IMG/VR virus record: IMGVR_UViG_3300009162_000008
Location: 1-43,660 of that record
Source of the DNA: a virus
Reading direction: 5' to 3' (one strand)
DNA length: 43,660 bases
Under the pieces are notes generated by a model that saw nothing but the letters and a program-made list of their open reading frames with translations, was not told where the DNA came from and searched no databases. A program made the translations under genes and the position numbers. Below, piece by piece: positions 6,717-33,749 of this stretch (positions within the stretch are counted from its first letter, which is position 1; each line of letters begins with the position of its first letter).

Positions 6717-6880
6717 GCTCGTGCCCTCAGCCGGATCAGCCGCGGGTGGCTCCACGAGCGATCGCGGCGCCAGCCTGCGCGCCGGAAGCACCAGCCGGGC
6801 ACCTCGCTGGCCACCGTCGTGGGCTCCCAGCGCTGCACCTCGATCGGCCACAGGTGCGGGACCACCAGCGGCTCGATCAT
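6713..6880 (-). CDS. 55-residue Trp-rich basic protein
   Basis: A reading frame from ATG 6880 (ATGA overlap with the initiator-like gene) to TGA at 6713-6715, which itself overlaps the nuclease GTG start as GTGA. The 55 residues contain six Trp and many Arg, especially in the C-terminal half (FRRAGWRRDRSW). No family is recognised. Exact four-base coupling on both sides and consistent GC-biased third positions support it as a real gene despite its size. Confidence 0.7.
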   Translation of the reverse strand: MIEPLVVPHLWPIEVQRWEPTTVASEVPGWCFRRAGWRRDRSWSHPRLIRLRARA

Positions 6881-7551
6881 CGGTGGCCTGGCGGAGGCGG
6901 CACGAGGTCACTGAACCTCTCCATCGCCCCGCCCCGAGGGCCTCCTGCGCCCTCGCGGGCGGGCGCGCTCGCGCCCGAAGGCACGGCATCGGTAGGGGCA
7001 CGGGGAGGCACTCCGCCCGCGCTGGCGCCTACGCGCGCGCCTGCGTCCGGGCCTGTGCGCGGGCCTGCGCGCGAGGCCGCGTTACGCCGCGGAACGCCGC
7101 GGATCGCCGCGTTACGCGGCGAGCTGGCATCCACCGCCTGTTCGAAGCTCGCCGCCTCGCCCTGCGCGTTGCCGTAGACGAGATCCTGCCAGCCCCTCGG
7201 AGCGGGCCAGCGGGAGGGGAAGGCCCGGCGCTGCCCGGCCTGCCAGTGCCACCAGCGGGTGAGCTGGATCAGCTCATCACCGCGGTGCTCGTATCGCTCC
7301 AGCATGCCCGCCTCCGCGAGCTCGTCGAGGGCCTCGCCCACCTGATCCACCGATACCAGGCGGAGGAGTCGCGGCAGGCACTGCACGAGCACGCCCGCGG
7401 CGCCACCCGCCAGCCGGCCCTGATCATCCGCCTGCGCCACGAGCCGAGGGAACAACAGGTTGGCCAGCAGGCCACACCGCCCCATCGATGGTGAGTCGCA
7501 CAGCTCCGGGTGGATTGCCCGGGGCCCGGGCGTGCTGAATTGCTTCGTCAT
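6877..7551 (-). CDS. Replication initiator-like winged-helix phage protein
   Basis: A 224-residue protein, ATG 7551 with ATGA overlap. The first ~125 residues contain QFSTPGPRAIHPELC (4-18), SLG/RCGLLANLLFPRLVAQAD (23-42), LDELAEAGMLERYEH (75-89) and FPSRWPAPRGWQDLVYG (110-126). This pattern is typical of phage proteins placed next to methylase and nuclease genes and annotated as replication-initiation or replisome-organizer proteins; the centre looks like a winged-helix fold. The second half (about 135-205) is low complexity, rich in Arg, Ala, Gly and Pro, and encoded by short tandem DNA repeats. That design recalls lambda O, whose gene contains the origin iterons. Function is inferred from family look and location. 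Confidence 0.65.
   Translation of the reverse strand: MTKQFSTPGPRAIHPELCDSPSMGRCGLLANLLFPRLVAQADDQGRLAGGAAGVLVQCLPRLLRLVSVDQVGEALDELAEAGMLERYEHRGDELIQLTRWWHWQAGQRRAFPSRWPAPRGWQDLVYGNAQGEAASFEQAVDASSPRNAAIRGVPRRNAASRAGPRTGPDAGARVGASAGGVPPRAPTDAVPSGASAPAREGAGGPRGGAMERFSDLVPPPPGHR
7076..7115 (-). repeat. Four tandem 10-bp GC-rich repeats, possible origin iterons
   Basis: On the + strand four adjacent 10-bp units read gccgcgttac, gccgcggaac, gccgcggatc and gccgcgttac, followed by a partial gcggc. Units 1 and 4 are identical; the variable bases are at positions 6-9. They lie in the coding sequence of the initiator-like protein, next to further GCGC-rich short repeats (about 7020-7075). The arrangement resembles iterons inside lambda-type initiator genes. 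A purely protein-level Arg/Asn/Ala repeat is the alternative. Confidence 0.5.
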
Positions 7552-8135
7552 GCCGATCCCCACAGCTTCAGGGGCCGAGCGCTCGGGCGCTTGCCGATCG
7601 GGCGGGCCTGTGAGCTCCACGTGGCCCATGCCCTGCCGATGGCGCCCGTGCCCGGGTAGAGATCCTCCAGCGTATCGGTGGGGCGGAGGCCCGCCGCATC
7701 GAACACGTACATCGCCACATCGAGCGGCTTGGCGCCCTTCAGCTTGCGCCCCGCCCGGGTGGGGTTGCCGCGGTACCAGTCGAAGATCGATGTGCGATAG
7801 GGCGGCCCGAGCGGGCGGATCAGGATGGGCTCCCACGCATACTGGAGGCGGGCGCCCGGGCGGAACACCGCGAAGGGCTTCACCCACGCCACGATCCGCA
7901 CCTCGGGCGGGCAGAGCGGCAGCAGGCTGGCCAGCGCGGGCACGTGGGTGTGCAGGGCCCAGCCATCGAACTCGCTCTCCAGGCGGGCGATCAGCTCGCT
8001 GTGATCCACCTCCTCGTGCTCCACGTACAGGTTGGCCAGCCCCGGATACGGCGGGTCCGCGTAGGCGAACCTCAGCGGGCGGTTGTCCCGCCGCCGGGCG
8101 CTGCTCACGGGGATCACCCGTGGCTCGCCCTTCAC
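7548..8135 (-). CDS. MT-A70-like DNA adenine methyltransferase
   Basis: A 195-residue protein. GTG 8135 overlaps the upstream stop as GTGA; ATG 8159 is an in-frame alternative. The catalytic motif DPPY (27-30, in FAYADPPYPGLANLY) is near the N-terminus. The SAM-binding-like motif DLYPGTGAIGRAW is near the C-terminus (about 158-170). This order is the permuted arrangement seen in MT-A70 and related amino-methyltransferases. WVKPFAVFRPG and YAWEPILI are typical of phage members. It probably methylates the N6 of adenine in phage DNA. It lacks an obvious separate target-recognition domain, so specificity cannot be read from sequence. Confidence 0.85.
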   Translation of the reverse strand: MKGEPRVIPVSSARRRDNRPLRFAYADPPYPGLANLYVEHEEVDHSELIARLESEFDGWALHTHVPALASLLPLCPPEVRIVAWVKPFAVFRPGARLQYAWEPILIRPLGPPYRTSIFDWYRGNPTRAGRKLKGAKPLDVAMYVFDAAGLRPTDTLEDLYPGTGAIGRAWATWSSQARPIGKRPSARPLKLWGSA

Positions 8136-8383
8136 AGCGGCAGCCCGAGCTGCACCCATGGGCGCGGCTCCACCAGCACGTACTTGGCCACGTGGGCGCC
8201 GCCCTCGGTGGCCACCATCGTGCGATCGATCTTGTGCCCGGCCTGCTTCAGGTCGTAGATGCGGGCGCCCAGCCGGAAGCTCCCGATGCGATCGAGCGCG
8301 AGGAGCGGGGTCACGCCCGCATCGCCACGCTCGCGCAGGAGCTCCAGCAGGCGCTCAGCCTGAGTGGCCTTCTCCGTCGCCAT
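8132..8383 (-). CDS. Small helix-turn-helix DNA-binding protein
   Basis: An 83-residue protein from ATG 8383, starting 29 bases inside the end of the large methyltransferase gene. An N-terminal helix (QAERLLELLRERG) is followed by VTPLLALDRIGSFRLGARIYDLKQAGHKI, with the RLGARIYDLK recognition-helix pattern common in small phage winged-helix proteins. A beta wing (MVATEGGAHVAKYVLVEP) follows. It could be a transcription factor acting on the early promoters or an accessory to the methyltransferases on both sides. Only the fold is suggested by the sequence. Confidence 0.78.
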   Translation of the reverse strand: MATEKATQAERLLELLRERGDAGVTPLLALDRIGSFRLGARIYDLKQAGHKIDRTMVATEGGAHVAKYVLVEPRPWVQLGLPL

Positions 8384-9881
8384 GATCAGTGCCCTCCTCG
8401 ATACTCACCGCCCTCGGCGGTGCCGTTGCGCCGGAGCCCGGAGGCCCGGCGGGGATCACGCTGGGCCAGCCGGGCCACCATGTGCCCGCCTTGCACGCGC
8501 TCTCCTCGATCGCCCCGCGGTGGAACCCTGCTCCATGCGAGCAGCCCGCGAGCTCAGGTGGTGGCGCCGCCTCCGCCGCGGGCGCCTCGGGTGCGGGGAA
8601 CTCCAGGATCTCGCCCGTGGTCCGATCCACGAGGTAGCCATCGGGGTGATCCATCGTGTCGCCGGCGGCCACCGCCTCCGGGTCCACCCGCGGCAGGGCC
8701 GAGATATCGGCGGCCTGCACCCACTCCTCGGGCGCGATGGCGGGCTCCCACGGCTCCTCCGGCTCGTTCACCGCGTAGGATGCCCGCTGCTGGAGCTGAT
8801 CCCCCGGTGCGCCCTCCGCCTCGGCGGCAGGCTCGTCCGCGGCAGGGCGGCCCGGCGCGCTGGCGGGAGGCGCGGGATCATCGGGTGGCAGCAGCGCCAG
8901 ATCGAGCTGAGGGCTCGGCGGCGCCGCGCGGTCGTAGCTCCAGCCTCGGGGCGGGCGGCCTTTGAGGAAGCACAGCACGTTCTGGTGGGCCCGCCCGAGC
9001 TTGCGCCCGGCCTCCATGTACTTGCCCACCCGGAGCGGCAGGCTGCCCACGCTGTTGATCAGCACGGCCTCGTTGTACAGGCGGAGCCCGGTGGCCTCGG
9101 CGGCGCCGATCGTGGCGGGCACGAGGCCCTTGCAGTAGCCCTCCCGATCGCGGATCTCGCTCACCACCACCACCGCGAAGCGCCCATCACGGAGGCGCGC
9201 GGCGGCCTGATGGAGGATCGAGGCGAGGCTGCTCACGAACATCGCCCAGTCGTAGGTGCTCAGGTCGCGGGGATCGCTGCTGTACACCTCCAGATCGTGG
9301 TAGGGCGGGCAGGTGAACACCATGTCGTACTCGGCGCCCGCCGGGAGGAGCTCGGCCAGATCCTGTGAGTCGCCATCGATCCACCGCGGCGCCGGCTCGG
9401 CGGGTGCGAGGATCGCCTCCGCCTGGTGACGGTTGGCGGCGAGCTGGGCGCTGCTCAGGTCCACCCCGGTGTACGGGTGCCCGAGCTTGGCCGCCACGAT
9501 CCCGCGCACGCTGCCGCCCGCGAACGGATCGAGGATGGCGCCGCCAGCCGGGGCCCACCAGCGGTAGGCCAGCTCGCACAGCACCGGATCGAACACGCTG
9601 GTGCCGGCGCCCTGCATGCCCTCCGGCTCCGCCACGGGATCATCGCCCGCGGCCCAGCGAGCTCGCGCCTGCTCGGCGGGGCTCAGGTGCAGCAGGTCGG
9701 CGGCCCGGCCCAGCTCACTCTGGATGCCGAGCGCGAGCCACGCCCGGCGCCGCTCCTGCCAATCGCCCTTCCGCGTATCGAGCACGCTGAATGGCGGCTG
9801 GAGGAACTTCGTCGAGAGCTCGCCCGGGCGGAACTCGGGTGCTGCGGGGGGCTCCTCGACCCCCCACAGCATGGCGCCCAC
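8355..9881 (-). CDS. Phage DNA methyltransferase with long low-complexity tail
   Basis: A 508-residue protein from GTG 9881 (ATG 9872 is an in-frame alternative). Residues ~24-56 (KFLQPPFSVLDTRKGDWQER, RRRAWLALGI) form the conserved leader region common in phage DNA-modification methylases. The SAM motif DPFAGGSVRG (118-127) precedes CPPYHDLEVY (191-200). The motif order FxGxG then PPY fits amino-methyltransferases (N6-adenine or N4-cytosine). Residues ~305-508 are Pro, Ala and Glu-rich and end with a Cys/His-containing segment (CSHGAGFHRG, ESACKAG), so the gene carries a disordered extension unlike typical family members. It is flanked by a metallopeptidase and an HTH gene in the early operon. 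Confidence 0.85.
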   Translation of the reverse strand: MGAMLWGVEEPPAAPEFRPGELSTKFLQPPFSVLDTRKGDWQERRRAWLALGIQSELGRAADLLHLSPAEQARARWAAGDDPVAEPEGMQGAGTSVFDPVLCELAYRWWAPAGGAILDPFAGGSVRGIVAAKLGHPYTGVDLSSAQLAANRHQAEAILAPAEPAPRWIDGDSQDLAELLPAGAEYDMVFTCPPYHDLEVYSSDPRDLSTYDWAMFVSSLASILHQAAARLRDGRFAVVVVSEIRDREGYCKGLVPATIGAAEATGLRLYNEAVLINSVGSLPLRVGKYMEAGRKLGRAHQNVLCFLKGRPPRGWSYDRAAPPSPQLDLALLPPDDPAPPASAPGRPAADEPAAEAEGAPGDQLQQRASYAVNEPEEPWEPAIAPEEWVQAADISALPRVDPEAVAAGDTMDHPDGYLVDRTTGEILEFPAPEAPAAEAAPPPELAGCSHGAGFHRGAIEESACKAGTWWPGWPSVIPAGPPGSGATAPPRAVSIEEGTDHGDGEGHSG

Positions 9882-15666: not shown

Positions 15667-15996
15667 CTATTTCGCGCCAGTACCTCTGCCGCGCAGGCGC
15701 TGCACCTCGCCCCTCGCCACGAACTCGCGCACCGGATCGCCGCCGGCCTCCGCCTGGACGAGCTGCGCCTCGGCCTCCTCCAGGCTGGCGGCGCGATCGC
15801 CCTCGCGCCGAGGGCACTCCAGCGGGGCCCCCGCATCCGCGAGCTTGGCCAGCCCTCGCCCGGTGATCCGGCCTCGCGGCAGCAGGCCCGCCACGGCGCC
15901 CTCAGCGGGGCGGTGGAGGTGGAAGTTCGCGCCACACGCGGCACACGGCGGGCGCCCGATGTAGATGCCCTCGGCGGGCACGTAGGTGCCGCTCAT
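15667..15996 (-). CDS. Hypothetical protein with Cys pair
   Basis: A 109-residue protein, ATG 15996 with ATGA overlap onto the C5 methyltransferase gene. An N-terminal CAAC (18-21) with nearby His26 and His28, and a later Cys61, suggest a zinc site. The C-terminal half is an Arg/Glu-rich helix (EEAEAQLVQAEAGGDP; VREFVARGEVQRLRGRG). No family is recognised. It is co-expressed with the methyltransferase; the next promoter starts at its stop codon. Confidence 0.68.
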   Translation of the reverse strand: MSGTYVPAEGIYIGRPPCAACGANFHLHRPAEGAVAGLLPRGRITGRGLAKLADAGAPLECPRREGDRAASLEEAEAQLVQAEAGGDPVREFVARGEVQRLRGRGTGAK

Positions 15997-16736
15997 CGGA
16001 GGGCCTCCAGCAGGGCCCGCCCGATGTGCTCGGTGTAGGCGGGCGGGATGCTCTCGCTCAGCTCCTCGCCCGTCATCCAATCGATGCCCATGGCCTGCCG
16101 CCGCACGGCGGTGGAGAACTGCACGAGGCCATCGCGCTTGCTCGATCCGCCCGCCGAGCCCCACACGCCGATCGTGCGCGGGCGCCGCGGTGGGTTGTGG
16201 TAGTCCTTGTCCTGCCCGCCACCGTACACGGGCACCGTGGGCGCCCGGTTGTGGGCGCACGGGCCCGGCGGCCAGAGGCCGAAGCTGCCCACCTCGAAGT
16301 AGCGGTGGCGCCTGAGCTGGCTCTCCTCCACGCCCAGCCCGAACATCGTGCCGCACAGCTTGATCGGGTCCACGAGCTCGCGGCGGGCGCCCTCCACGTT
16401 CTCGATCACGTAGGGCAGGCCGAGGCGGTGGAGCTCGGCCCGCGTGGGCGGGATCAGGTTGGGGTGCTCGCGCTCCTTCCACAGGCCGCGGCGCATCGTG
16501 CTGTAGAGCTGGCACGGCGGGCTGGCGTGGATCGCCGCCACGGGCTGGCCGAGCAGCGCCTCCAGATCCTCGATCGCACCCGAGCGCAGGAACGCCACGG
16601 CATCGCCCTGCACGAACCGGAAGGGGTACCGCGGCTGAGGCGCGAGATCCACGCCCACCACATCGAACCCGGCACGGTGGTAGCCCATCGCGGCGCCGCC
16701 AGCGCCCGAGAACAGATCGAGCAGCAGAGGCCTCAT
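15993..16736 (-). CDS. DNA cytosine-C5 methyltransferase
   Basis: A 247-residue protein, ATG 16736 with ATGA overlap. Motif I LDLFSGAGGAAMGY (6-19), catalytic motif IV ASPPCQLYS (71-79) with Cys75, motif VI VIENVEGAR (110-118) and motif VIII-like QLRRHRYFEV (150-159) identify a C5 methyltransferase. It transfers a methyl group to C5 of cytosine in DNA. It is shorter than restriction-linked enzymes (usually over 300 residues); the region between motifs VIII and IX, which holds the target-recognition domain, is small. No cognate restriction gene is present, so self-protection or regulation is likely. Confidence 0.93.
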   Translation of the reverse strand: MRPLLLDLFSGAGGAAMGYHRAGFDVVGVDLAPQPRYPFRFVQGDAVAFLRSGAIEDLEALLGQPVAAIHASPPCQLYSTMRRGLWKEREHPNLIPPTRAELHRLGLPYVIENVEGARRELVDPIKLCGTMFGLGVEESQLRRHRYFEVGSFGLWPPGPCAHNRAPTVPVYGGGQDKDYHNPPRRPRTIGVWGSAGGSSKRDGLVQFSTAVRRQAMGIDWMTGEELSESIPPAYTEHIGRALLEALR

Positions 16737-16861
16737 CGGATCACCCCCGTGGGCATGTTGATCAGCTCCGCGAGCTGAGGGCCGAGGAGGATCACGGCGG
16801 CGATCGCCACCACGATGATCAGCACGAGCAGGGCGCCCGTGACGATGGCCTGCTCGCTCAT
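16733..16861 (-). CDS. 42-residue single-helix membrane protein
   Basis: ATG 16861 overlaps the upstream stop as ATGA and the frame ends at 16733, overlapping the methyltransferase start. The product is one hydrophobic helix (about 6-27, Leu/Ile/Val/Ala only) plus a short tail. No family is recognised. Coupling on both sides supports translation. Confidence 0.65.
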   Translation of the reverse strand: MSEQAIVTGALLVLIIVVAIAAVILLGPQLAELINMPTGVIR

Positions 16862-17040
16862 CGGGCGGCCCGCCTCTCGTGCAGGAGCTGGACCGGTGAG
16901 AGGATGCCGCGCGTGCGGCTCTCCATGATCGCCTTGGCCGCGAGGTCGCCACGCGCCTCGGCCAGATCGTGCCGCCGGGCCTCGCGGTCCCATGCGGCGA
17001 GCGCGGCCCGCTGGCGGCGCTCCTGCTCGCTCGGCCTCAT
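16858..17040 (-). CDS. 60-residue basic helical protein
   Basis: ATG 17040 overlaps the upstream stop as ATGA. The product is almost all helix, rich in Arg, Ala and Glu (EQERRQRAALAAWDREARRH; LAEARGDLAAKAIMESR). No membrane segment or Cys is present and no family is recognised. It may bind nucleic acid or a protein partner; it lies in the early operon driven by the 17.4 kb promoter. Confidence 0.65.
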   Translation of the reverse strand: MRPSEQERRQRAALAAWDREARRHDLAEARGDLAAKAIMESRTRGILSPVQLLHERRAAR

Positions 17041-18337: not shown

Positions 18338-19636
18338 CTATGCGAAGTGCGTGATCACCCACACGGCGCCCTTGCTGCCGTTGCCGCCTGCGCCCGAGTC
18401 CACCACAGCGTTGACGCCAGCCCCGCCGCCGCCACCACCACCACCGGGGAAGCCACCTGCCCCGCCCGTGCCGATGTTGGCCGCCGTCTTGCTGCCGCCA
18501 CCACCACCACCGCCAGCGCCCATGTACGGGAACGTCTCGCCGCTGATCACGGCGCCCGCCGTGCCCGCCGCGTGCACGGCGCCGCCGTTGGCGTTGCTCA
18601 GCCCGAGCTTCTCGCTGGGCACGCCACCGTTGCCGCCCGCCCGCTCGTTGTTCGAGGCATCCACGGCGCCGCCCGCCCCGCCGCCGCCGCACGCATAGAA
18701 CGGGTTGCCCTCATACGCGGTGCCCGTGAGGATCGAGCTCCCGCCGGAGGCGAGCTTGTTCTGATCGAGCGTGTTCTGGAAGGCGATCTGGTAGTGATCG
18801 ATCCGGCTGTTCCAATTGCCGCCGCCTGGAGGGCCGCCCGCCCCGGAGCCTGCGCTGGCACCGCCTGCCGTGCCGGGCTGGCCGGCATTGCCCATCACCT
18901 TGGCGTCGGTCTGCACGCCATCCACGCTGTTGCCGAAGAACGAGGCGGTGGCACCACTGCCGCCCGCCCCATCGGTATCGCTCGTGGTGCGGCCAGCGCC
19001 GCCCGTGCCGCCAGCGCCCACGGTGAGCTTCTCGGTGGCGCCGAGATCCGAGGCGAGCAGGCGCTTCCGGCTCACGCCGCCGGCACCACCTCCGCCGCCG
19101 CCGTAGCGGGCGGTGCTCGCGGCGCCCTTGCGGCCCGAGGCCCCGCCGTTGCCGCCGCCCACGCACACGACCTCCACCCACACGGCGCCCGCCGGCTTCG
19201 TCCACGTGGTGTTGCCCGCGGTGTTGAAGAGCTGCACATCAGGCGCGCTCACCCCGGAGGTGCTCGGATCGGAGCCCCACAGGATCGCCTTGGGGGTGGT
19301 GCCGCCGGTCTTGAACTGGCAGAACGTGCCCGTGCCTCGGGCGGCCTGCGAGGTGGCCTGCTTCGCCACGGTGTGGGTCTTGCCGTAGTGGCCCCGCGTC
19401 ACGCTCGCGGCCACGTTGACGAGCGCGGCCTCGCCTTGCAGGAGCACCCGCCCGGTGGCGTTGTTCGCGATGCTCTCCTGCGCGATGCCCACGGTGGCGG
19501 TGCTGCCGCTCGTGGTGGTGGTGGTGAAGGAGTCGTCGTTGGCTCCATCGAGGATCACCACATCGCCAGCGATCACGCTGCCGCCGCTCTTGTTCGTGAG
19601 CGGCACGATGATCCGGCGCCCCGAGGTGCTAGCCAT
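18338..19636 (-). CDS. Glycine-rich tail tip / adhesin protein
   Basis: A 432-residue protein. Residues 1-110 form a normal-complexity domain (IIVPLTNKSGGSVIAGDVVILD, then TTSGSTATVGIAQE) of the type found on phage tail fibre proteins. TTWTKPAGAVWVEVVCVGGG (143-162) opens a region of repeated poly-Gly runs (GGGGGGAGG, GAGGTGGAGR, GGGGGGGGSK, GGGGGGGGAG) ending in VWVITHFA. Such glycine-rich domains are known in T-even-type gp38 adhesins, where polyglycine-II sandwiches bind the receptor, and in phage tail proteins of the same family look. It is coded directly after the baseplate protein, so it probably sits at the tail tip and helps determine host range. Confidence 0.78.
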   Translation of the reverse strand: MASTSGRRIIVPLTNKSGGSVIAGDVVILDGANDDSFTTTTTSGSTATVGIAQESIANNATGRVLLQGEAALVNVAASVTRGHYGKTHTVAKQATSQAARGTGTFCQFKTGGTTPKAILWGSDPSTSGVSAPDVQLFNTAGNTTWTKPAGAVWVEVVCVGGGNGGASGRKGAASTARYGGGGGGAGGVSRKRLLASDLGATEKLTVGAGGTGGAGRTTSDTDGAGGSGATASFFGNSVDGVQTDAKVMGNAGQPGTAGGASAGSGAGGPPGGGNWNSRIDHYQIAFQNTLDQNKLASGGSSILTGTAYEGNPFYACGGGGAGGAVDASNNERAGGNGGVPSEKLGLSNANGGAVHAAGTAGAVISGETFPYMGAGGGGGGGSKTAANIGTGGAGGFPGGGGGGGGAGVNAVVDSGAGGNGSKGAVWVITHFA

Positions 19637-19651: not shown

Positions 19652-22600
19652 TCACTCCAGCACCGCCGCGTAGTCGATGCTCACATTGTCGGTGCCGCTT
19701 GCAGGAGCGCTGCCGAACGTCACCTCATCGTTGAGCGTACCACCCAAGGTGACCGGGGTCCGCACCCCCGCCACCCACGCCATCACGCTATCCGGGCGGG
19801 CCCTGTTGGCGAGCACGAACACCGTGGTGGCGGCATCGCCGCTGAAAACCTCATCCACGATGTGCACGTGCGGCTCGATCGCATCGAGGGCCACCGCTGC
19901 TGCCGCCGCGGCGATCGCCGGCACCTCATCGAGCTCGCCCTCGATCGCCTCCGCCTGGATAGCGAGCTCGCGCAGCCCGCCCTCCACATCGGTAGCCGTG
20001 AAGCGCTCGTCGAGATCCGCGAGCGCCACATCGGCGGCCACCTCGGGCGGCACGTAGCCCTCGAACTCCAGCACCAGGCGGGCGTTCCCACCTCGCGCCA
20101 CGCCGCTGAGGTTGTACCCGCAATACACCACGTACCACGTGTCATCCTCGCGGTAGAGGCTGCCCCGGAAGGCGAGCGCCTCATCGAAGGCTCCCGCATC
20201 GCCGTTGGGCAGCACGGGGTTGGCGCTGTAGCGGGTGTACGGCCCGGCGGGATCAGTGGCGAAGGCGAGGCCTTGGCTGCAATCGTTGCCGTGCGGGAAC
20301 GGGGAGGTTGGGCCGCCCACGTACATGATCACGTAGTGGCCATCCACGTAGTCGATATCGGGATCGGCCACCACGCTGTCATCCCACGAGCCGCCAGTGC
20401 CGAACGGCAGCACGGGATTGAGCGCCGAGCGGGTGTACGGGCCCTCGGGCGCATCCGCGATGGCCACGCCAATCTGCTCGCTCTCCTGATAGGGCAGGTC
20501 GGAGTCCTCGCCCATGTAGGCCATGATCCACTTGCCGCCGCGGTAGATGACCGAAACCTCGCCCACCCGCCGCGAGTCCCATGCGCCGGCGGTATCGGGC
20601 GCGAACACCGCCGAGCCGTGCTCGGTGTAGGGCCCGGTGATCACATCGGCCACGGCCATGCTGATGGCGTTGAGCGGGCTGGTGGCGCCCGCGATCGGCG
20701 CGAGGCTCATGAACAGATAGAACCGATCGTCGGGGCCCTGCACGAGGTACGGCGCGTACATGGCGTGCGAGCTGCGCCACGTGATGTCGTCCTCATCGAA
20801 GATCGATGTGCCGGCGCTCCACGGGCCATCGGGGCTCGGCGCCGTGGCCAGCCACACGAGGCCATCCCCGCCGCCGAAGCTCGTGGTGTAGGGGCAGTAG
20901 TACGTGCTGCCCACCCGGATGATCTTCCCCTCTGGCACGGTGGCCGTGGGCCACGTGGGGTTGCTCGCGCTCTTCTCGGAGGTGATCGTGGCCTCGGGGC
21001 GGAGCTTGCCGTGCCAGTGATCGTCGCGCTCGCCTGGTAGCCACAGCTCCTGATCCGCGTCCCACACCGGGATCTGGCCATCCTCCAGATCGGCCATGTC
21101 CACATCGGTGAGCCCGCTGTACGCGCCCGAGCGCGGCCACACTCGGGCCACGCCATCCGCGGGCTGCGTCACGCCCCAATCGCTCTCGATCGTGCCCGCC
21201 ACCACCTCATCGCCCGTGGCGGTATCGCGCACGATCATCGAGGTGGAGCCCTTGCTCCCGGCGCCCACGCTGCCGCCACCGCCCGTGATCCCGCCGCCGG
21301 CGCCCGTGCCGCCATCGCTGGCGTTGGCATCGGGGAAGTAGCTGGTCGAGAGCTCCACGAGCGCCCGCCATGCCTCCCGCTCCTCGGTGCAGGTGATGGC
21401 GTAGACGGTGAAATCCTGCTCGTTGTAATCGAACGGCCCGGTGCCGGTGTGGAGCCGCACGAGGTCGCCCACCCAATAGTGGCCATCGGTGCCCGCCGGG
21501 CCCGGCATGTAGAGGCCGGCCGCCTCATCGTCGCCCCACGCCACTTGCAGGGCCAGCGCATCGGCCACGCTGCGCTCCTGCGCGAGCTCCGCCGCCGCCG
21601 TGCCCTCCAGCGCCTCGGCGCTCGTGAGGTCGGTGGTGATGAACCCCTCGCGCACGTACCCGAGGTCGTTATCCACCGCCGTGGCGAACAGCTTGCCCTC
21701 GCCCTGCGCGAGCATGTGCGTATCCACCCGCCGATCATCGAGGCGCCGGAGGAGGCGCTCCACGATGTTGACGCCGCTGCGCAGGCGCACCTTGCCAGCG
21801 CCGAAGCTGGCGCTCGTGCGGTCGGTGCCGTAATTGCCCGGGTTGTAGGCCTCCAGCTCCAGCAGCGGGCTCATCTGGAGCACCAGCCCGTAGCTCGTGA
21901 GCCTCAGCGCGGTGGCCATGCCGAGATCCCCGATGGCCGCGCTGAACTCCACGGTGCCCGCCGCGGCATCCCACGGATCGCCCGTGGAGTCCTGAGTGAA
22001 ATCGAAGTCGTAATCGGCCTCGGGGATCGGCTGCTGTGGCCGATCGCCGCTCTGCCACTCGGCCATCAGCCGCGCGAGGATCGCGCCTGGATTGGCCTCG
22101 TCGAGGCGCCACACGCCATCCACCGGATCGTGCGGGGTGGAGCTGGTGATCTGGTACTTCCACACCGCATCGGCGGTGTAGCTCACGGGGTAGAAATAGT
22201 CCTGCCCGCCCTCGGTGCGCCACGAGCCGCCGAACGCGCTGAGGCCCGTGGTCTTGATCACATCGGTGATCACGGTGGGGGCCGCCGTGCTGGCGATCAG
22301 GGCGCGCTTCGTGCCGCTGAACCAGATGGCGATCTGCGCGCCGTTGATCGAGAGGCCCGTGCACTTGGTCTGCGCCACGCCGCCGTAGCTGATCGAGTGC
22401 GAGGCGGTGACGGCCCCGGTGGCCTTGCTGCGCTGCTGGAAGTCGGGCCCGTCGTACTTGCTGGTCCAGAGGCTCGTGCCATCCGCCTCGATATCGGTGA
22501 GCTGCACGGCGCTCCCGAGGTCGAACGTGGCGAGGATCGCCCAATCGCTGATCCTCACCTTCCTGATCTTCGTGTTCCCCGAGCCGCCCAGCGCCCACGG

Positions 22601-24190
22601 GCTCTCCAGCGCCCACATGATCGTGCTATCGCTGGGGTCCTCGCACAGGCCGCCGGCATAGTTGTCGGAGCCGCTCCAGAGCGGGGGCGAGGTGCGCACG
22701 ATGGCGCGATCGCTCTGCCGGAGCTTGTACACGCGCCGGGAGTAGCCCCCGATCACGTACAGGAAGTCATCATCGCCGCCCACCGTGCACGAGCCCACGG
22801 GCGCGTTGATCTTGTGGGTTTCCCACACCTCGGTCCACGTATCGCTGATGTCGTTGCCCGTGGTGAAGGCCTCGCTCCACATGCGGGCCCGATCGAGGTA
22901 GCTGAGGGCGCCACGCCCGCCGAAGGTGAGGAGCTCCCCGCCCTCCTCCTCGCTGGCATCGAGCAGCGTGAAGTCGCCCTGCTCCAGGAAGAACGCGAAG
23001 ATGTAATCCTCGCTCACCTCGGGCAGCCGCACGCGCACGAGGTTGCCCTTCGCGAAATTGGCCGCCGTGGCCTCCTCCGCGTGCCGGCTGATCACCACCT
23101 CGCCGTAGCCCGGGCCCGCGAGCTCGGCCCGGAACGTGCGCTTCTGGTGGCCCGTGATCGTGGCGAGGATCGGCCCGTGCAGATCATCCGCCGCGTAGAT
23201 ATCCCACGCCACGGGCTGCGGGTTGTCGTCGGGCACGAACTCCAGCAGGGCGGTGCCGGAGCGGCCCACGGTGGCCGCCGCGTTGAGCCCCGCGTACATC
23301 ATGGTGTAGGGCGGGCCCTCATCGGTCCACACGCCGCCGCGGAACGGGCCGCCCTCATCCCACGTGCCCGAGCCGCCCGGCGGGAGGAACGGGTTCTGAG
23401 CGTGCTTCGTCCAGGGCCCATCGAGCGCGGCCAGCGTGAGGTTGGCCGCGGTGGCGATGCCCACGCCCCACGGGAAGCCGATCACGGGCGAGCCGCCGCC
23501 CACGCCCGCGGCCCCGGTGTACATCAGGGCCCAGCGCCCGCCGGCGCCGCCGAGCTCGCTGGCAGGCTCCCGCCACAGGTGGGGGTGATCCACGATCACG
23601 TCGTCCCACGCGCCCGAGGAGCCCACGTTGAGGATCGGGTTCGTGAGCGCCTTGGTCCACACCCCGCTCAGGGTGGCCCGGGTGGCGTAGCCGATCCGCC
23701 GCTCCGTCTCGCCGCTCGCGCTGCCGGAGTAGGCCATGACGTACCCGCCCGAGCCATCGGCGCACACGCTCGGGCCGCGTACGTCGGCATCGTCCCACGC
23801 GCCAGCCGTGCCCACGGGCAGCACCGGGTTGGCGGCATCGCGGGTCCACGCGCCGCCCGGGAACGAGCCCACGGCCATGCTGGCGTGGCCGATGCCCTTC
23901 GTGAACACGTTGTAGTACAGGTGGATCGTGCTGCCATCGAGCAGGAGCATCGAGGTATCGATGCCGGTCGAGCCGCTCTCCCAGCCCGTGCCGAGGGCGC
24001 TGAGCAGCGTGCCCTGATTGGTCCACGGGCCCTCGGGCGCCGGCGCCGAGGCATAGCCCACCACGTAGGGCGCCCCGATCCCGCGGTAGGTGGTGTAGTA
24101 CGTGCTCCCCACCTTCACGATGCTCTCAGCGAGCGCGCTGAAATTGACGGTGGGGTTGCTCGGGTCCTTGGTGATCTGGATGGAGCTCAT
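19652..24190 (-). CDS. Giant baseplate/tail-associated protein with three beta-propellers and Gp37-like core
   Basis: A 1512-residue protein. Residues ~8-315 are a five-bladed glycosidase-like propeller with repeats such as NPVLPVGTAGAWDDADVRGP (121-140), NPILNVGSSGAWDD (184-197) and DEGGPFRGGV (278-287). A ReqiPepy6 Gp37-like tail core follows in two parts (~325-460 and ~690-955), interrupted by a second, unrelated propeller (~465-690; FLYVIGGYSRRVYKL, TDIEADGTSLWTS). A Gly-rich hinge (959-979) leads to a third propeller (~1075-1380) that is a copy of the first (SNPT, VGSTYY, NPVLPFGTGGSWDDSVVADP, DEALAFRGSL). A helix and a beta domain (1441-1512) end it. It lies after the distal tail protein and probably forms the receptor-contacting baseplate. 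The first and third propellers resemble GH43/GH32/GH130 folds, so they may bind or cut glycans. Confidence 0.85.
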   Translation of the reverse strand: MSSIQITKDPSNPTVNFSALAESIVKVGSTYYTTYRGIGAPYVVGYASAPAPEGPWTNQGTLLSALGTGWESGSTGIDTSMLLLDGSTIHLYYNVFTKGIGHASMAVGSFPGGAWTRDAANPVLPVGTAGAWDDADVRGPSVCADGSGGYVMAYSGSASGETERRIGYATRATLSGVWTKALTNPILNVGSSGAWDDVIVDHPHLWREPASELGGAGGRWALMYTGAAGVGGGSPVIGFPWGVGIATAANLTLAALDGPWTKHAQNPFLPPGGSGTWDEGGPFRGGVWTDEGPPYTMMYAGLNAAATVGRSGTALLEFVPDDNPQPVAWDIYAADDLHGPILATITGHQKRTFRAELAGPGYGEVVISRHAEEATAANFAKGNLVRVRLPEVSEDYIFAFFLEQGDFTLLDASEEEGGELLTFGGRGALSYLDRARMWSEAFTTGNDISDTWTEVWETHKINAPVGSCTVGGDDDFLYVIGGYSRRVYKLRQSDRAIVRTSPPLWSGSDNYAGGLCEDPSDSTIMWALESPWALGGSGNTKIRKVRISDWAILATFDLGSAVQLTDIEADGTSLWTSKYDGPDFQQRSKATGAVTASHSISYGGVAQTKCTGLSINGAQIAIWFSGTKRALIASTAAPTVITDVIKTTGLSAFGGSWRTEGGQDYFYPVSYTADAVWKYQITSSTPHDPVDGVWRLDEANPGAILARLMAEWQSGDRPQQPIPEADYDFDFTQDSTGDPWDAAAGTVEFSAAIGDLGMATALRLTSYGLVLQMSPLLELEAYNPGNYGTDRTSASFGAGKVRLRSGVNIVERLLRRLDDRRVDTHMLAQGEGKLFATAVDNDLGYVREGFITTDLTSAEALEGTAAAELAQERSVADALALQVAWGDDEAAGLYMPGPAGTDGHYWVGDLVRLHTGTGPFDYNEQDFTVYAITCTEEREAWRALVELSTSYFPDANASDGGTGAGGGITGGGGSVGAGSKGSTSMIVRDTATGDEVVAGTIESDWGVTQPADGVARVWPRSGAYSGLTDVDMADLEDGQIPVWDADQELWLPGERDDHWHGKLRPEATITSEKSASNPTWPTATVPEGKIIRVGSTYYCPYTTSFGGGDGLVWLATAPSPDGPWSAGTSIFDEDDITWRSSHAMYAPYLVQGPDDRFYLFMSLAPIAGATSPLNAISMAVADVITGPYTEHGSAVFAPDTAGAWDSRRVGEVSVIYRGGKWIMAYMGEDSDLPYQESEQIGVAIADAPEGPYTRSALNPVLPFGTGGSWDDSVVADPDIDYVDGHYVIMYVGGPTSPFPHGNDCSQGLAFATDPAGPYTRYSANPVLPNGDAGAFDEALAFRGSLYREDDTWYVVYCGYNLSGVARGGNARLVLEFEGYVPPEVAADVALADLDERFTATDVEGGLRELAIQAEAIEGELDEVPAIAAAAAAVALDAIEPHVHIVDEVFSGDAATTVFVLANRARPDSVMAWVAGVRTPVTLGGTLNDEVTFGSAPASGTDNVSIDYAAVLE

Positions 24191-24199
24191 GGCCGCGAG

Positions 24200-24661
24200 C
24201 TAGGGTGTCTCAGGGAGCCAATACGGGTCCACGCTCTCCAGCGCGATCGATACACGAGCCACGTGGCTGGCCACCCGCTCCTCGATCAGCACGGGCGGCA
24301 GCACCCGGGCGTTGATCGTCTGCACGGTGCCATCCTCCATCGTGGCCGAGAGCACGCGCGGATCGAGGACCGGATCGAACAGCGCCTGGAGGGCCTGCAC
24401 GCTCTCCCGAAAGTTCGCGATCGCCAGAGCCACGGTGGTGCCCTGCGCGAGCACCCACCCCTCCAGCTCCAGCGCGAGCACATCGGCCACCCGGGCGCGC
24501 GCGATCCGGCCCGTGCGCCGCGGCACCACATCATCGGCGCCCCGGACGCTGGGCACCTCGTTGAGCCCGCGCACGAGCCACAGCACGTACTCCAGCGAGC
24601 TCGGGGCGAGATCCGTGCCGTCGTAGCTCAGGGCCACGTAGCCGCCGCTGGTGAGAGGCAT
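24200..24661 (-). CDS. Distal tail protein (Dit-like)
   Basis: A 153-residue protein from ATG 24661, three bases after the tape-measure stop. YVALSYDGTDLAPSSLEYVL (8-27) opens a beta-rich domain. VPRRTGRIARARVADVLALE (47-66) and a following LEGWV strand fit the galectin-like barrel of siphovirus distal tail proteins, as do FRESVQALQALFDP (84-97) and the last strands ARVSIALESVDPYW. It forms the hub between tail tube and baseplate. The order tape measure, distal tail, baseplate is standard. The assignment relies on order, size and these segments. Confidence 0.82.
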   Translation of the reverse strand: MPLTSGGYVALSYDGTDLAPSSLEYVLWLVRGLNEVPSVRGADDVVPRRTGRIARARVADVLALELEGWVLAQGTTVALAIANFRESVQALQALFDPVLDPRVLSATMEDGTVQTINARVLPPVLIEERVASHVARVSIALESVDPYWLPETP

Positions 24662-24664
24662 CGC

Positions 24665-27211
24665 TCAGGCTCCTGCTGGATCGGTGCGGGGCCGCGGGTT
24701 GATCAGCCCATGGCGCTGGTACCAGCTCGCGCGCTCCAGCACCTCCAGCTCATCGCGGTGGCGCTCGGGCAGCACGATCGTGGTGCTGTAGCTCGTGGGC
24801 TGGGCGGGCGCTGGCGCCGGGGCGGGCGGGCCCATGCTGATATCGCCCTCGGGCACCACCGTGCCAGCCACATCGGGCACCCACAGCTCACGGCCTCGCT
24901 CGCCCACCCACTGGATCGAGCCCGCGCGGGCATGGCCGCCCTCGGCCATGCCGGGCACCGTGGCGCCACCGCCGAACCGCTCCTCCATTATCGCAATCTT
25001 GTTCAGGAACCCCACGTACAGGGCATTGCCGAGCCGCCGAGCCGCCGCGGCCACGGCGCCCTTCTTGTCGTCCACGCCATCCGCGAGATCCTGCCCGGCC
25101 TCGCGCCCGGCCTTCAGCGCGGCGATGCGATCGAGCTCGTGCTCCACGATCGCCTGAGTGCGCTGGGCCTGCGCCCGCACCGCCGGGTCCTTGCTTTTCA
25201 GGCCCGCGGCGAGCTCCTCCTGCGCCTTCTTCCCCGCCTTGCCGCCCGCGAGGATCACCTCCGCCAGGCGCTGCTCGATGATCGCCCGGGTGCTCTCGGC
25301 CTGCGCCCGGACCAGCGGGTCGTTACTGGCGAGGCCCTTGGCCAGCTCCTTGCTCGTGAGCAGCCCCACCAGCTTGGCCTGCTCCTTGGCCGGGCTCATC
25401 GCGTTCTTCAGATCCTCCACGAGCTGCGCCATGGCGGCATCCACCGCCGAGCGCTTCTCGCGGATGCCCGCCGCGAGCTCGCCGCTGATCAGCAGCCCGT
25501 TCTGCTTCGCCTGCGCCACCGCCGTGGCGCCCGCGGGGGTCATGCCCGCGTACATGTTCTGAGCGGCGGCAGCCACGGGGCCCGAGCCATCCCCGATGCC
25601 CTCCGCGAGCGCGGGCCCGATGCCGGCGGCTCGGCGCTCGATCTCCGCGTTCGTGGCATCGAGCTCGGCGGTGAGCTTATCCCGGGCCTCGCCCGTGAAC
25701 AGGCCGAAGTCCCACACGCCGTTGAGATCCGCGATGCCCTTCTCCAGCGCCGCCTTCTGCGTGGCCAGCGCCTCATCGGTGCCGCTCTTGATCTGAGCCT
25801 GCACATCGCTATCGATGGCCTTCAGCTGCTCGCCCAGCTCGGCCTTGATCCGGTTGTATGTGTTCACCACCTCCACGAGGAGGATGGCCGCGAACCCTGC
25901 CGCGGCGAGCCCGCCGAGGGTGGAGCCGAGGAGCGCGCCGAGCTTGCCGGCGCCCGCCTTCACGAGCCCGGCGCCCGGGAGCTTGCCGAGCGCCCCGCCC
26001 AGCGCGCCAGCGAGCTGATCCGCCACGAACATCGCCCCGCTGAAGATCGCCCCGATGATCAGCCCGGCCTTGGTCGCTGCGCCCTTCACGAGGGCGGAGC
26101 CCGCCAGCTTGCCGAAGGCCTTGGCGAGCACCCTGTCCAGGCCGAGGCTGCCGCCGAGGCTGGCCAGCGCGGCGGCCCCGGTGAGCACCGATCCCCACTC
26201 GGCGCCGAAGCCGCGCAGGGCGGCGCCAGCCTCGCTCATCAGCTTCTTGAACCGGGCGCCGAACGTGCTATCGAGGGCCTCCGCGGCGCGATCCGTGGCG
26301 CCCGCGCTCTCCTCCGCCGACACCATGAAATCATCGAGCGAGTCGATGCCCGGCTGGAGCGCGTTGGCGAGGCCAGCGCCACCGCGGGCTCCGAACACCT
26401 CCATCGCCGCCTGCGCGCGCAGGGTGGGGTCCTCGATCGAGCTGATCTGCGCGATGAGGTCGTCCAGCGTTTGGCCCGGCTTCAGCCCGGCCACCGCCTT
26501 CTTCAGTGCGCCCGCCGCGGCCCCTGCATCGAGGCCCGAGGCGGCGAACAGATTGAGCAGCCCGATCCCATCATCCACATCGGCGCCGAGCGCCCGGAGC
26601 TGTGGCGCGAGCTGGCCCAGCGCCTGCTGATTGGCCACGATCGAGCCGCCGAACCGCTGATTGCTGGCGAGGAGCTTGTCCTGTAGGCCCGCCGCATCCT
26701 CCGCCGTGAGCCCCCACGCATCGAGGATGTCGTCGTAATCGCTCACCGCCTGCGCGGCATCCTGCCGGGTGACCCGGGCGAACCGCACGAAATCCTCGGT
26801 GAGCTCGTTGGCCGCCTCGCCCGTGGCGCCGAGATCCTTGCGCACCCGGATCGCGGCCTCAGCCACCGCCTCCAGGCTGGCGCGCTCGCTGCCCGCCACC
26901 TTGTTGATCGCTGCCGCGGCGGCCTTGGCCTCATCGGCGGTGGCGCCCGTCTCGGCCCGGAAGCGGGCTTGGATCTCCTCCAGTTGCATCGCGCCGGCGC
27001 TCATCGCCCCGAACACGAGCGCGGCGCCACCACCGATGGCGCGCAGCGCCCCGCCCATGTTCGACTTCAGGCTCCCAGCGAGGCGCTGGCCCATGCTCTT
27101 GCCAGCCTGATCGCCCGCCTTCTCGCCCGCCTTGACGGCGCTCTTTACGAACTCGCGGCCATCGCCATCGAGGAGCAGGCGGCCGAAAACGTCGATCAGG
27201 CTGGCGGCCAT
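24665..27211 (-). CDS. Tail tape measure protein
   Basis: An 848-residue protein, ATG 27211. The N-terminus (FVKSAVKAGEKAGDQAGKSM; GGALRAIGGGAALVFGAMSA) and the region 75-290 (QLEEIQARFRAETGA; DLGATGEAANELTEDFVRFA; ILDAWGLTAEDAAGLQDKLL; DPTLRAQAAMEVFGARG) are typical of the phage tape-measure domain. Hydrophobic segments at about 370-470 are likely membrane-inserting. Helical repeats (KNGLLISGELAAGIREKRS; LVGLLTSKELAKGLASNDP; AQEELAAGLKSKDP) fill 540-720. GMAEGGHARAGSIQWVGERG (about 775) is a common C-terminal segment. At about 1.5 Angstrom per residue the tail would be near 125 nm. No lytic domain is seen. Confidence 0.93.
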   Translation of the reverse strand: MAASLIDVFGRLLLDGDGREFVKSAVKAGEKAGDQAGKSMGQRLAGSLKSNMGGALRAIGGGAALVFGAMSAGAMQLEEIQARFRAETGATADEAKAAAAAINKVAGSERASLEAVAEAAIRVRKDLGATGEAANELTEDFVRFARVTRQDAAQAVSDYDDILDAWGLTAEDAAGLQDKLLASNQRFGGSIVANQQALGQLAPQLRALGADVDDGIGLLNLFAASGLDAGAAAGALKKAVAGLKPGQTLDDLIAQISSIEDPTLRAQAAMEVFGARGGAGLANALQPGIDSLDDFMVSAEESAGATDRAAEALDSTFGARFKKLMSEAGAALRGFGAEWGSVLTGAAALASLGGSLGLDRVLAKAFGKLAGSALVKGAATKAGLIIGAIFSGAMFVADQLAGALGGALGKLPGAGLVKAGAGKLGALLGSTLGGLAAAGFAAILLVEVVNTYNRIKAELGEQLKAIDSDVQAQIKSGTDEALATQKAALEKGIADLNGVWDFGLFTGEARDKLTAELDATNAEIERRAAGIGPALAEGIGDGSGPVAAAAQNMYAGMTPAGATAVAQAKQNGLLISGELAAGIREKRSAVDAAMAQLVEDLKNAMSPAKEQAKLVGLLTSKELAKGLASNDPLVRAQAESTRAIIEQRLAEVILAGGKAGKKAQEELAAGLKSKDPAVRAQAQRTQAIVEHELDRIAALKAGREAGQDLADGVDDKKGAVAAAARRLGNALYVGFLNKIAIMEERFGGGATVPGMAEGGHARAGSIQWVGERGRELWVPDVAGTVVPEGDISMGPPAPAPAPAQPTSYSTTIVLPERHRDELEVLERASWYQRHGLINPRPRTDPAGA

Positions 27212-30648: not shown

Positions 30649-31250
30649 CACACGCCGAGGTGCCAGAGCCCGAGCATTTTCCGAGCATCGCGCACGTGGC
30701 TGCCCACCTCGTAATCCCAGCCGTCGCGCACGAGGAGCAGCGCCGGGCCGAGGCCCCACTGCGGGTGCTCCAGATCCGGGCTGTAGGCCTCGCCCGGGGC
30801 GATCCTGAGCCCGAGCTCGCCGCCCACGTAGGTGGTGGCCAGCAGCCACGGGGTGCCGCTCGCCCGGATCGCGCCGAGCAGCCGATGGCCCTCCTCCGCC
30901 GGCAGGTGGTGGATCGCATCGCGGCACAGCACGAGGTCGCCGCGGGGCACCCGGTGGATGGCCGGATCGAACACGCGGAAGGTGCGCTCGGGGTGGAGCT
31001 CGCGGGCTCGGGCGATCGCCTCGGCGCTCACATCGAGGCCCACGTAGCCGGGCAGCTCGGGCTGCCAGTAGCCATCGCCGCACGCCATATCCACCACGGT
31101 GTGGGCGCCCACGGCCACGGCCATCATCCGCACCGCGATCGCCGTCCAGGCGGTGGCCGCGCGGCCACTTCCGGGCCCCGAGCGGCTCTCCTCGCCCGCC
31201 CATGCGTTCTCGCGGTAGATGCGATCGAACACGGCGCCGAGCTCAGCCAT
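30648..31250 (-). CDS. Class I SAM-dependent methyltransferase
   Basis: A 200-residue protein, ATG 31250, overlapping the upstream glycosyltransferase by eight bases. HTVVDMACGDGYWQPELPGY (50-69) is motif I; YVGLDVSAEAIARARELHPE (69-88) carries the second SAM-binding Asp. DLVLCRDAIHHLPAEEGHRL and LLATTYVGGELGLRIAP resemble small-molecule and sugar methyltransferases. The substrate cannot be read. Its N-terminal MAELGAVFDRIYRENAW is a typical cap helix. Placement between a glycosyltransferase and an FkbM methyltransferase argues for glycan tailoring rather than DNA modification. Confidence 0.87.
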   Translation of the reverse strand: MAELGAVFDRIYRENAWAGEESRSGPGSGRAATAWTAIAVRMMAVAVGAHTVVDMACGDGYWQPELPGYVGLDVSAEAIARARELHPERTFRVFDPAIHRVPRGDLVLCRDAIHHLPAEEGHRLLGAIRASGTPWLLATTYVGGELGLRIAPGEAYSPDLEHPQWGLGPALLLVRDGWDYEVGSHVRDARKMLGLWHLGV

Positions 31251-32583
31251 GCCGCTTCTCGGGGGGCAGCCACGAGCCCCAATAGTGGTGGAGGCCGAAC
31301 CCCCACGGGTGCCGGTTGCGGAGCTGAGGATCGGCCATCAGGCGCTTGCGATCCGGGTCGCGGTAGTGCACCGCGTAGAACGAGCCCGGCGGGAGGAGCA
31401 GCACATCGGGCCGCCCCACGAGCACCGCGGTGGTCACGCCCGGGCCCCGCTCCCACGTGGGCTGCTCGATGCGATCGAGGGCCAGATCGAGGCACGCCTG
31501 GATGGCCGGGTGGCTCGGCACGGCGCCCATCACCGCGTTGGGCACCACCCGCTCGTCCTCCCACGCTGCGAACGCGCTGAGCGGCAGCAGGGGATCGAGC
31601 GCGCGCCACGGCTCCACGTCCTGATCCACGTAGATGCCGCCCCACCTGAGCAGCGCCTCCAGCCGCACGAGATCCGCCAGCTCGGCGCCGTTCTGGCACT
31701 GATCCCAATACGGGCTCGTGGCCGGCCACTCGGCGGGGTCCAGAGGATCGCGGTGCGTGAGGAGCGTCCACTCGGGGTGGAGCTTGCCGAACGCGGCCCA
31801 CCAGCGATCCGCGAGCTCGTTGGGTGCCTCGGGCACCACCCGGTGGAGGATGCGCGGGATGCCCGCCATGCGGTGCTCGTATGCCGGGCGGGTGGTGGCG
31901 CGCACCCGCTGGAGCTCCTCGGGGTTGCCCCGGGCCCGGAGGTACAGCTCGGCCCGGAGCTTATTCCGCTGGTGGGTGAAGGTGCCGCGCTTGCCCTCCG
32001 CGGCGGTGGGGTGCCACAGGTGCCAGAGCTCGCCCGGGAGCTTCAGCACGGGCTGGCCAGCCATCGTCTCGCAGGCCGCCGCGAACGCATTGTCCTCGAA
32101 ACCCCACCCCACGAACGTCTCATCGAAGCCGCCCACCGCATCCCACAGGGATCGGCTCACGATCACCACGCTGCTCACCATATCGGTGTAGGTGCGGTGC
32201 ACGAACTTGGTCCAGCTCCCGCTGTAGCCGCTCATCACGGCCTTGCTCCCGGGCGCGTTGAGGTCGTGCCGCACATCGAACGGCAGCACCATCCGCCCCG
32301 TGGCGATCGCCTCCTCCACGCCTCGGCGGGTGCGCTCGGGATCGTTGATCACATCGGCATCGATGATCACCGCCACGTCCCACGGGCGCTCCTGCTGCCA
32401 ATCGGCCATGCCGGCGGCTCGATTGATCGCCGCCGAGCGATTGAACAGGCCCTCGTCGTGGTGGCCCTCGTGGATCTCCCAGCCGAGGTGATCCCGCCAC
32501 CACTGGCGCACCCACGCCCACGTGAGGTCACGCTCCCGATCGCCCTCGCGCCGCGGCACGAGGATCACGATGCGCTCAGCCAC
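31243..32583 (-). CDS. Two-domain glycosyltransferase (GT-A plus Gly_transf_sug)
   Basis: A 446-residue protein from GTG 32583, 19 bases inside the upstream gene. Domain 1 (~5-200) has AVIIDADVIN with the DAD motif (75-77) and GFDETFVGWGFEDNAFAAAC (152-171), the GT7/galactosyltransferase-type WGxED motif. Domain 2 (~240-446) starts IPRILHRVV and has ADLVRLEALLRWGGIYVDQD (303-322), the DxD-containing Gly_transf_sug signature. One polypeptide thus probably adds two sugars in sequence. Neither domain is membrane-bound. Phages use such enzymes to glycosylate virion proteins or DNA; the location among structural genes favours virion proteins. Confidence 0.87.
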   Translation of the reverse strand: MAERIVILVPRREGDRERDLTWAWVRQWWRDHLGWEIHEGHHDEGLFNRSAAINRAAGMADWQQERPWDVAVIIDADVINDPERTRRGVEEAIATGRMVLPFDVRHDLNAPGSKAVMSGYSGSWTKFVHRTYTDMVSSVVIVSRSLWDAVGGFDETFVGWGFEDNAFAAACETMAGQPVLKLPGELWHLWHPTAAEGKRGTFTHQRNKLRAELYLRARGNPEELQRVRATTRPAYEHRMAGIPRILHRVVPEAPNELADRWWAAFGKLHPEWTLLTHRDPLDPAEWPATSPYWDQCQNGAELADLVRLEALLRWGGIYVDQDVEPWRALDPLLPLSAFAAWEDERVVPNAVMGAVPSHPAIQACLDLALDRIEQPTWERGPGVTTAVLVGRPDVLLLPPGSFYAVHYRDPDRKRLMADPQLRNRHPWGFGLHHYWGSWLPPEKRHG

Positions 32584-33749
32584 TCCTCCAGCACCTCCGC
32601 CGCGGTTGCCGCTATCCCGGCCCGCCGAGGGTACACGCATCGCAGGGCTGCCGCGCGCGCGGCCTGCTGCTCGGGCTCATCCGCGAGGGCCCGCTCGATG
32701 CCCGCGAGCAGCTCCTCCGGCTCATCCACCTGCACGCCCACCCCCGCGTCGTGCCAGAACCGGAGCCCGTGCTCGATCGAGCGGCGATACCAGGGGGCAT
32801 TGAGCACGAGCACGGGGCGATCGGTGAGCGCGAACTCGTACAGCGTGCTCGTATTGTCGGCCACGTAGAGATCCGCGCGCTCCAGCACCTCCTCCCAGCT
32901 CGGCACCCACTCGATCCCGAGCTCGCGCCACAGCGGCTCCAGCCCGGCGCGCGGGTGGCCGTGGCCGATCACGTGGTGCTCGCGGGCCAGCCCGGCCAGC
33001 GCCCGGCGGTAGTGCGGGAGGGCGGATCGGCTCTCGGGGGCCGCGGGGCACTCCCAATGGAAGCTCACCGCGATCGTGGGGCGCCCGCCGCGACCCGATT
33101 GCGCGGGCGCCCTGCCCGAGAGTACCTCGGCCACCGGATCGCCCACCAGCTCCACGCGCGCGCCCGGGTAGGCGCGGCGATCGGCGCTGGCCGCGTGCTC
33201 GTTGGGGCTCAGGAACAGGTTCACGTGCTGGCGGCCCACGCCGCCCGGGTAGCCACCGGGCCGCCCGTAGCTCTGGCCGATGCCGTGCTCCATGTAGGCG
33301 ATCCGGCGGTACCGCGCGCGCAGGGCGGCGCCGAGATCCTGAGCGCTGCTCACGAGCACGGCGCCAGCGGTGCCGCTCACGGGCGGCCACACCTGCTCGG
33401 GGAGGGCATCGAGCACGGGCTGGAGGTGCGCGAGGTACTGCGCGCGGGTGGCGATCACATCGAGCTGGTGCATGGCCGGGCGGGGGTCCTCAGCGGTTGC
33501 CATCCGGGCCACCTCTGCATCGACCTCCGCCCGGTCGCGATCGAGGATAGCGCGGCGGCGCTGCTCAGCCCTGCGAACCCGCTCGCGCTCGCGGTACTCG
33601 GGATGGGCGGCCCGCCATGCCCGGCACCGGGCCGCCCACGCGGCTGGATCATCGCTGTGGCGGTGGCCGATCCCGCCCCGGGAGCCCACGCCCGTGCGGA
33701 TGCTGCGCGAGGAGCGCCGGCGCCCGTAGGCATCGCGCTCCTCGATCAC
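32565..33749 (-). CDS. GT-B-type CDP-glycerol glycerophosphotransferase-like protein
   Basis: A 394-residue protein from GTG 33749. Residues 1-85 are strongly basic (RRRSSRS; WRAAHPEYRERERVRRAEQR), like DNA- or protein-binding extensions. From ~93 a GT-B-like body follows: LVSSAQDLGAALRARYRRIA, YMEHGIGQSYG (150-160), LFLSPNEHAA and VELVGDP (200-206). The C-terminal half carries the conserved ERADLYVADNTSTLYEFALT (291-310), as in CDP-glycerol glycerophosphotransferases and related glycosyl transferases, and PVLVLNAPWYRR. The reaction is probably transfer of a sugar or glycerol-phosphate to a virion target. It opens the decoration cassette. Confidence 0.8.
   Translation of the reverse strand: MIEERDAYGRRRSSRSIRTGVGSRGGIGHRHSDDPAAWAARCRAWRAAHPEYRERERVRRAEQRRRAILDRDRAEVDAEVARMATAEDPRPAMHQLDVIATRAQYLAHLQPVLDALPEQVWPPVSGTAGAVLVSSAQDLGAALRARYRRIAYMEHGIGQSYGRPGGYPGGVGRQHVNLFLSPNEHAASADRRAYPGARVELVGDPVAEVLSGRAPAQSGRGGRPTIAVSFHWECPAAPESRSALPHYRRALAGLAREHHVIGHGHPRAGLEPLWRELGIEWVPSWEEVLERADLYVADNTSTLYEFALTDRPVLVLNAPWYRRSIEHGLRFWHDAGVGVQVDEPEELLAGIERALADEPEQQAARAAALRCVYPRRAGIAATAAEVLEEWLSAS

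Follow-up and report, generated by a model that had tools for sequence, protein, structure and literature searches.

A candidate tail-hub protein with glycosidase-like propellers at both ends in a soil-type siphophage

A virus record of 43,660 bases and 71% G+C (IMG/VR record IMGVR_UViG_3300009162_000008), which over its full length constitutes the window analysed here, encodes a 1512-residue protein with homologous GH43/GH117-like propellers in its N-terminal and C-terminal regions. We interpret this protein as a siphophage tail hub, in the position of Tal proteins, whose glycosidase-derived propellers would act as adsorption domains, that is, as multivalent glycan binders and not as cutters. 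We give this reading a probability of about 0.6. A sequence-only reading of the same DNA had proposed a glycan-binding or glycan-cutting tail tip with multiple binding sites; alignment, fold prediction and the location of the gene speak for the binding alternative, which is still a prediction.

Gene position and reading frame

The record comes from a bacterial virus of soil type, whose minus strand encodes a siphophage gene set comprising terminase, portal, capsid, tail terminator, major tail protein and tape measure genes. The virus is represented by a second IMG/VR record, identical to the window over 16.5 kb that include the frame described here. The open reading frame of interest (19652 to 24190, minus strand) is uninterrupted, and its third-position G+C is high from end to end; it is therefore coding throughout. 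The 1512-residue frame is thus real, and it lies shortly downstream of the tape measure gene. The tape measure protein (24665 to 27211, minus strand; PF10145, 5e-11; phrog_991, 4e-14) is followed by a 153-residue gene (24200 to 24661, minus strand), which by position only corresponds to a distal tail protein gene and has no family match in Pfam or PHROG searches, and then by the 1512-residue frame, an order that corresponds to the placement of a Tal or tail hub gene. Downstream lies a 432-residue glycine-rich tail protein (18338 to 19636, minus strand; PF21722, phrog_8859, phrog_863, phrog_356).

Several further features of the window are recorded here as observations. No clear ribosome-binding site precedes the annotated start codon, an ATG at 24190, and an internal GTG at codon V319 (23234 to 23245, minus strand), with a GGAG upstream, falls exactly at the border between the N-terminal propeller and the core. 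We considered this GTG as the start of a hub-only product and rejected it: the GGAG lies within a run of LLEF codons and is probably accidental. Between the capsid and tail genes, the intervals 31243 to 32640 and 32565 to 33749 (minus strand) hold one gene resembling galactosyltransferases (phrog_1721, E 1e-27) and one with a sub-threshold glycerophosphotransferase match; virion decoration by the phage itself is a possibility. Two DNA methyltransferase genes (8355 to 9881 and 15993 to 16952, minus strand) are also present, the first of which additionally matches a ParB-like family.

The two terminal propellers and their relatives

The N-terminal propeller (residues 1-320; 23231 to 24190, minus strand) and the C-terminal five-bladed propeller (residues 1065-1380; 20051 to 20998, minus strand) are homologous, as the sequence-only reading had claimed. 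Residues 2-318 and 1071-1380 align end to end, with 31% identity over about 334 columns (BLASTP E 2e-31), and their Smith-Waterman score of 327 lies well beyond chance (mean 44, sd 6.7 and maximum 77 over 300 shuffles). An initial alignment of the propellers proved too permissive for scanning. A 16-sequence profile, which counts the two domains themselves among its rows, matches the N domain at residues 7-317 with 243 bits and the C domain at 1073-1377 with 253 bits, nearly over the full profile length in both cases. Most of the shared motifs described earlier hold, namely the SNPT...VGSTYY opening and the ordered NPxLxxGxxGxWD repeats; the last-blade motif had been given as DE-x4-FRG and is actually DE-x3-FRG. 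In the alignment of the two domains it spans D278-G285 in the N copy (23336 to 23359, minus strand) and D1336-G1343 in the C copy (20162 to 20185, minus strand).

In Pfam searches the C domain passes the GH43 cut-off (PF04616; 60.2 bits vs 32.2) and the N domain stays just under it (29.2 bits), while DUF4185/GH183 (PF13810) scores below its cut-off in the C domain (23.6 bits vs 39.5) and gives no match in the N domain. An AlphaFold2 model of the C domain, built from the 16-row alignment, has five blades at a pLDDT of about 90; the same architecture is assigned to the N domain solely through its homology to C. GH117 and GH43 structures rank first in a Foldseek search with the C model (5ta7, E 3e-13), and sequence matches of the propellers in the PDB are likewise to GH117 anhydro-galactosidases and GH43 arabinanases.

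We favour internal duplication as the origin of the two propellers. They are each other's best match, and they have in common the short first blade (SNPT...VGSTYY) and the DE-x3-FRG motif, which are absent from the other aligned relatives. Separate acquisition of each from bacterial secreted propeller proteins is a serious possibility, if not the one we would expect: the N domain matches a protein of another viral contig, L011, with 99 bits over 220 residues, nearly what it achieves against the C domain (107 bits over 334 residues), and a tree of the propellers fails to group N with C, which leaves the duplication short of proof. The L011 protein itself (6812 to 8254) is a five-blade propeller protein with a secreted-like start that lies among head-type genes.

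Propellers of this kind recur among the tail proteins of environmental phages. Searches of viral contigs with the full-length protein, the core, the C domain and the insert recovered only the second record of the same virus, and a tblastn search with the propellers over 50,697 phage records retrieved only two Methanofastidiosa viruses at a meaningful E-value; these encode proteins of about 480 residues with the same propeller at their end (vir521, L005 7173 to 8645; vir520, L008 7371 to 8798). In named phage records, propeller relatives are labelled just 'hypothetical protein'. On an environmental viral contig (L013), a propeller lies beside the gene of a tail hub, with a tape-measure-like frame upstream. 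In another contig (L068, 4601 to 6529) a propeller stands ahead of a DUF2341 domain; the first 30 or so residues of this protein resemble the start of DUF2341, and by this resemblance the propeller may be inserted within that domain. A frame of at least 3981 residues (L065, 1568 to 13511), with many head-to-tail propeller repeats, runs off its locus. A further parallel is a 1758-residue protein (L067, 4973 to 10249; IMGVR 3300033141), which starts with an Mtd domain and contains two propellers of this family, separate from each other. A phage tail-type protein with a pair of propellers is thus no singular case; in L067, however, the base is an Mtd-type fibre domain instead of a hub core and both propellers lie behind this attachment domain. 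Flanking a hub core is what distinguishes the 1512-residue protein from other two-propeller tail proteins.

The hub-like core and its insert

Between the propellers, residues 323-460 (22811 to 23224, minus strand) and 701-955 (21326 to 22090, minus strand) probably represent the two halves of a tail-hub core of the Gp37/phiC31-gp46 type. Residues 795-922 match phrog_1885, a minor tail protein family to which phiC31 gp46 and Streptomyces phage Heather gp15 belong (E 3e-4). In hhalign comparisons with a joint profile of 12 phrog_1885-type hub proteins and 8 Gp37 proteins, residues 329-443 align with the N-terminal part of the profile (109 columns, E 0.0055) and residues 857-916 with a stretch near its C-terminal end (E 0.0024), with probabilities within 7-12% for both. 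The halves match in the correct order, and their scores were equalled neither by shuffled versions (100 for each half) nor by 40 decoys made of pieces of other window proteins. Near the start of the first half, VAWDIYAADD includes a hub-like WDIYA opening; the second half contains QGEG and WVGD motifs. Because the hhalign probabilities stay low despite the right order and the WDIYA start, we regard the hub core as probable, not proven.

The Gp37-like core that had been proposed is weakly supported. The Sipho_Gp37 model PF14594 gives no match in the window at E values up to 10, where controls are silent too (the model does detect 8 of 396 actinobacterial genomes), but the two halves do show a remote match, in co-linear order, to proteins of the tail hub. 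That the core is split by an insert is backed to the same extent, by the profile match of the flanking halves and no more. Searches with the core found no relative in the 50,697 phage records (tblastn) or among solved structures in the PDB. A match to Borrelia OspA (E 0.6) was rejected as chance. Three matches in the 396 actinobacterial genomes (E 0.004-0.008) were also rejected, since the open frames there appear to encode housekeeping proteins without relation to the core. Single-sequence folding of core and insert yielded no usable model (pLDDT 33).

The position of the first propeller looks unusual, in agreement with the sequence-only reading. Like phiC31 gp46, Heather gp15 and Sipho_Gp37 proteins, to which its core shows the remote co-linear match, the 1512-residue protein occupies the place after the tape measure; those proteins, however, start with the core. 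In 12 tail-hub relatives, read by eye, the core begins within about the first 30 residues and none of the 12 was seen to have a propeller in front, compared with 320 preceding residues here.

Behind the core follow a glycine-rich linker with a small fibre-type segment (residues 956-1064; 20999 to 21325, minus strand), recognized by weak matches to phrog_3384 and phrog_13853 (E 0.002-0.003), and, beyond the C-terminal propeller, a helical segment (residues 1381-1440; 19871 to 20050, minus strand) which the model shows as helices at low confidence, and a C-terminal segment (residues 1441-1512 and stop; 19652 to 19870, minus strand), also of low model confidence, with no meaningful family match in Pfam and PHROG searches. 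The fibre-like character of the C-terminal segments, the silence of PF14594, the lack of a solved relative of the core and the example of L067, with its two propellers behind an Mtd-type fibre domain, would fit a tail fibre or receptor-binding protein in which the middle region is a fibre scaffold and the hub match is spurious. We consider this unlikely: the hub profile is matched by the two halves of the core in the right order, with scores above those of every shuffle and decoy, and no other gene of the interval is an obvious hub, the one after the 1512-residue frame being glycine-rich.

The insert between the core halves (residues 461-700; 22091 to 22810, minus strand) had been described as a further propeller at about residues 465-690, which we could not substantiate. 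It aligns with neither end domain, it shows no internal repeat signal (18 of 60 shuffles reach its score), and no relative was found in PDB, phage, actinobacterial or viral sequences apart from the second record of the same virus; its single-sequence model is the unusable one noted above. A sub-threshold Kelch_6 match (E 0.038) is the sole hint of a blade.

Binding, cutting and the organization of the tail tip

Catalytic residues were judged on sequence alignments, without superposing structures. In alignments with GH43 arabinanases, the base Asp of HDPSII in blade I is replaced by E1087 in the C domain, and its position in the N domain, inferred by spacing, is occupied by A21. Where the GH43 acid Glu and the pKa-modulating Asp might be sought, the blades begin with RVGEVS and VVADPD in C and with DVRGPS and IVDHPH in N. 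Alignment with GH117 enzymes shows that both copies lack the Asp of RDPS and the His-Glu pair of SGHE, a pair marked as functional in GH117 by the PDB titles of the mutants H302E and E303Q; the replacements read NGDA in C and PGGS in N. In this GH117 alignment the blade-IV Asp is kept in C as D1276 and is His202 in N. The same acids are missing from aligned non-enzyme relatives of bacterial, archaeal and viral origin, many of which are secreted repeat propellers. The propellers thus resemble GH117 and GH43 enzymes (5ta7, 4ak7, 4qqs, 2x8f) in fold and sequence but not in these residues.

Since neither propeller retains the catalytic residues of GH43 and GH117 that were tested, and the relatives are alike in this respect, glycan binding is likelier than cutting, hydrolysis by the propellers appears unlikely on sequence grounds, and the glycan-cutting tail tip is not upheld. 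Active hydrolases with a changed set of catalytic residues, one or both propellers cutting a wall or capsule polysaccharide of the host at adsorption, have some arguments in their favour. The C domain exceeds the Pfam GH43 cut-off and retains acidic E1087 and D1276 near pocket positions, from which an unusual activity is possible; and propellers make up about 12% of polysaccharide-degrading folds among phage proteins screened by DepoScope (PMC11326577). There is also a precedent in Gordonia phage GMA6, whose Orf45, a 'putative lysin', is a large multidomain actinophage protein with a GH43-like propeller: this DUF4185/GH183 domain, of related fold, has endo-D-arabinanase activity and shares its chain with amidase and M23 domains (PMC10115798). 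The 1512-residue protein differs from it in falling under the DUF4185 cut-off in C, with no match in N, and in lacking the tested residues, as do its closest relatives. For this reason we give the enzyme interpretation little weight, although the GMA6 GH183 domain shows that it is possible in principle.

Returning to the glycan-binding hub, the organization of the tail tip can be sketched by analogy with Tal proteins and with Gp45 of phage phi11. The latter, a receptor-binding protein of a siphophage tail tip, has a five-bladed propeller with a cavity that might accommodate GlcNAc, and its trimers carry three propellers (PMC4901313). In phi11 the propeller sits on a separate triple-helical receptor-binding protein, one per chain, whereas here two propellers flank a hub-like core. 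If the hub trimerises like other Tal proteins, each tail tip would display three N-terminal and three C-terminal propellers, the former close to the hub ring and the latter hanging on the glycine-rich linker and reaching toward the cell. These six propellers would jointly bind a surface glycan of the host through numerous contacts that are individually weak but together hold the phage firmly. That a third propeller lies inside the core between the two of the same family, giving nine per trimer in three tiers that engage glycans sequentially, strikes us as improbable.

Experimental examples of propeller receptor-binding domains in tailed phages are few. The present case, taken together with its relatives from environmental viruses, points to GH43/GH117-type propellers of enzymatic descent as a tail-tip part that can be reused, added before, behind and perhaps inside scaffolds. 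With the 1512-residue protein one can test directly if a fold that once cut sugars has come to bind them, and how a single hub gene builds in multivalency.
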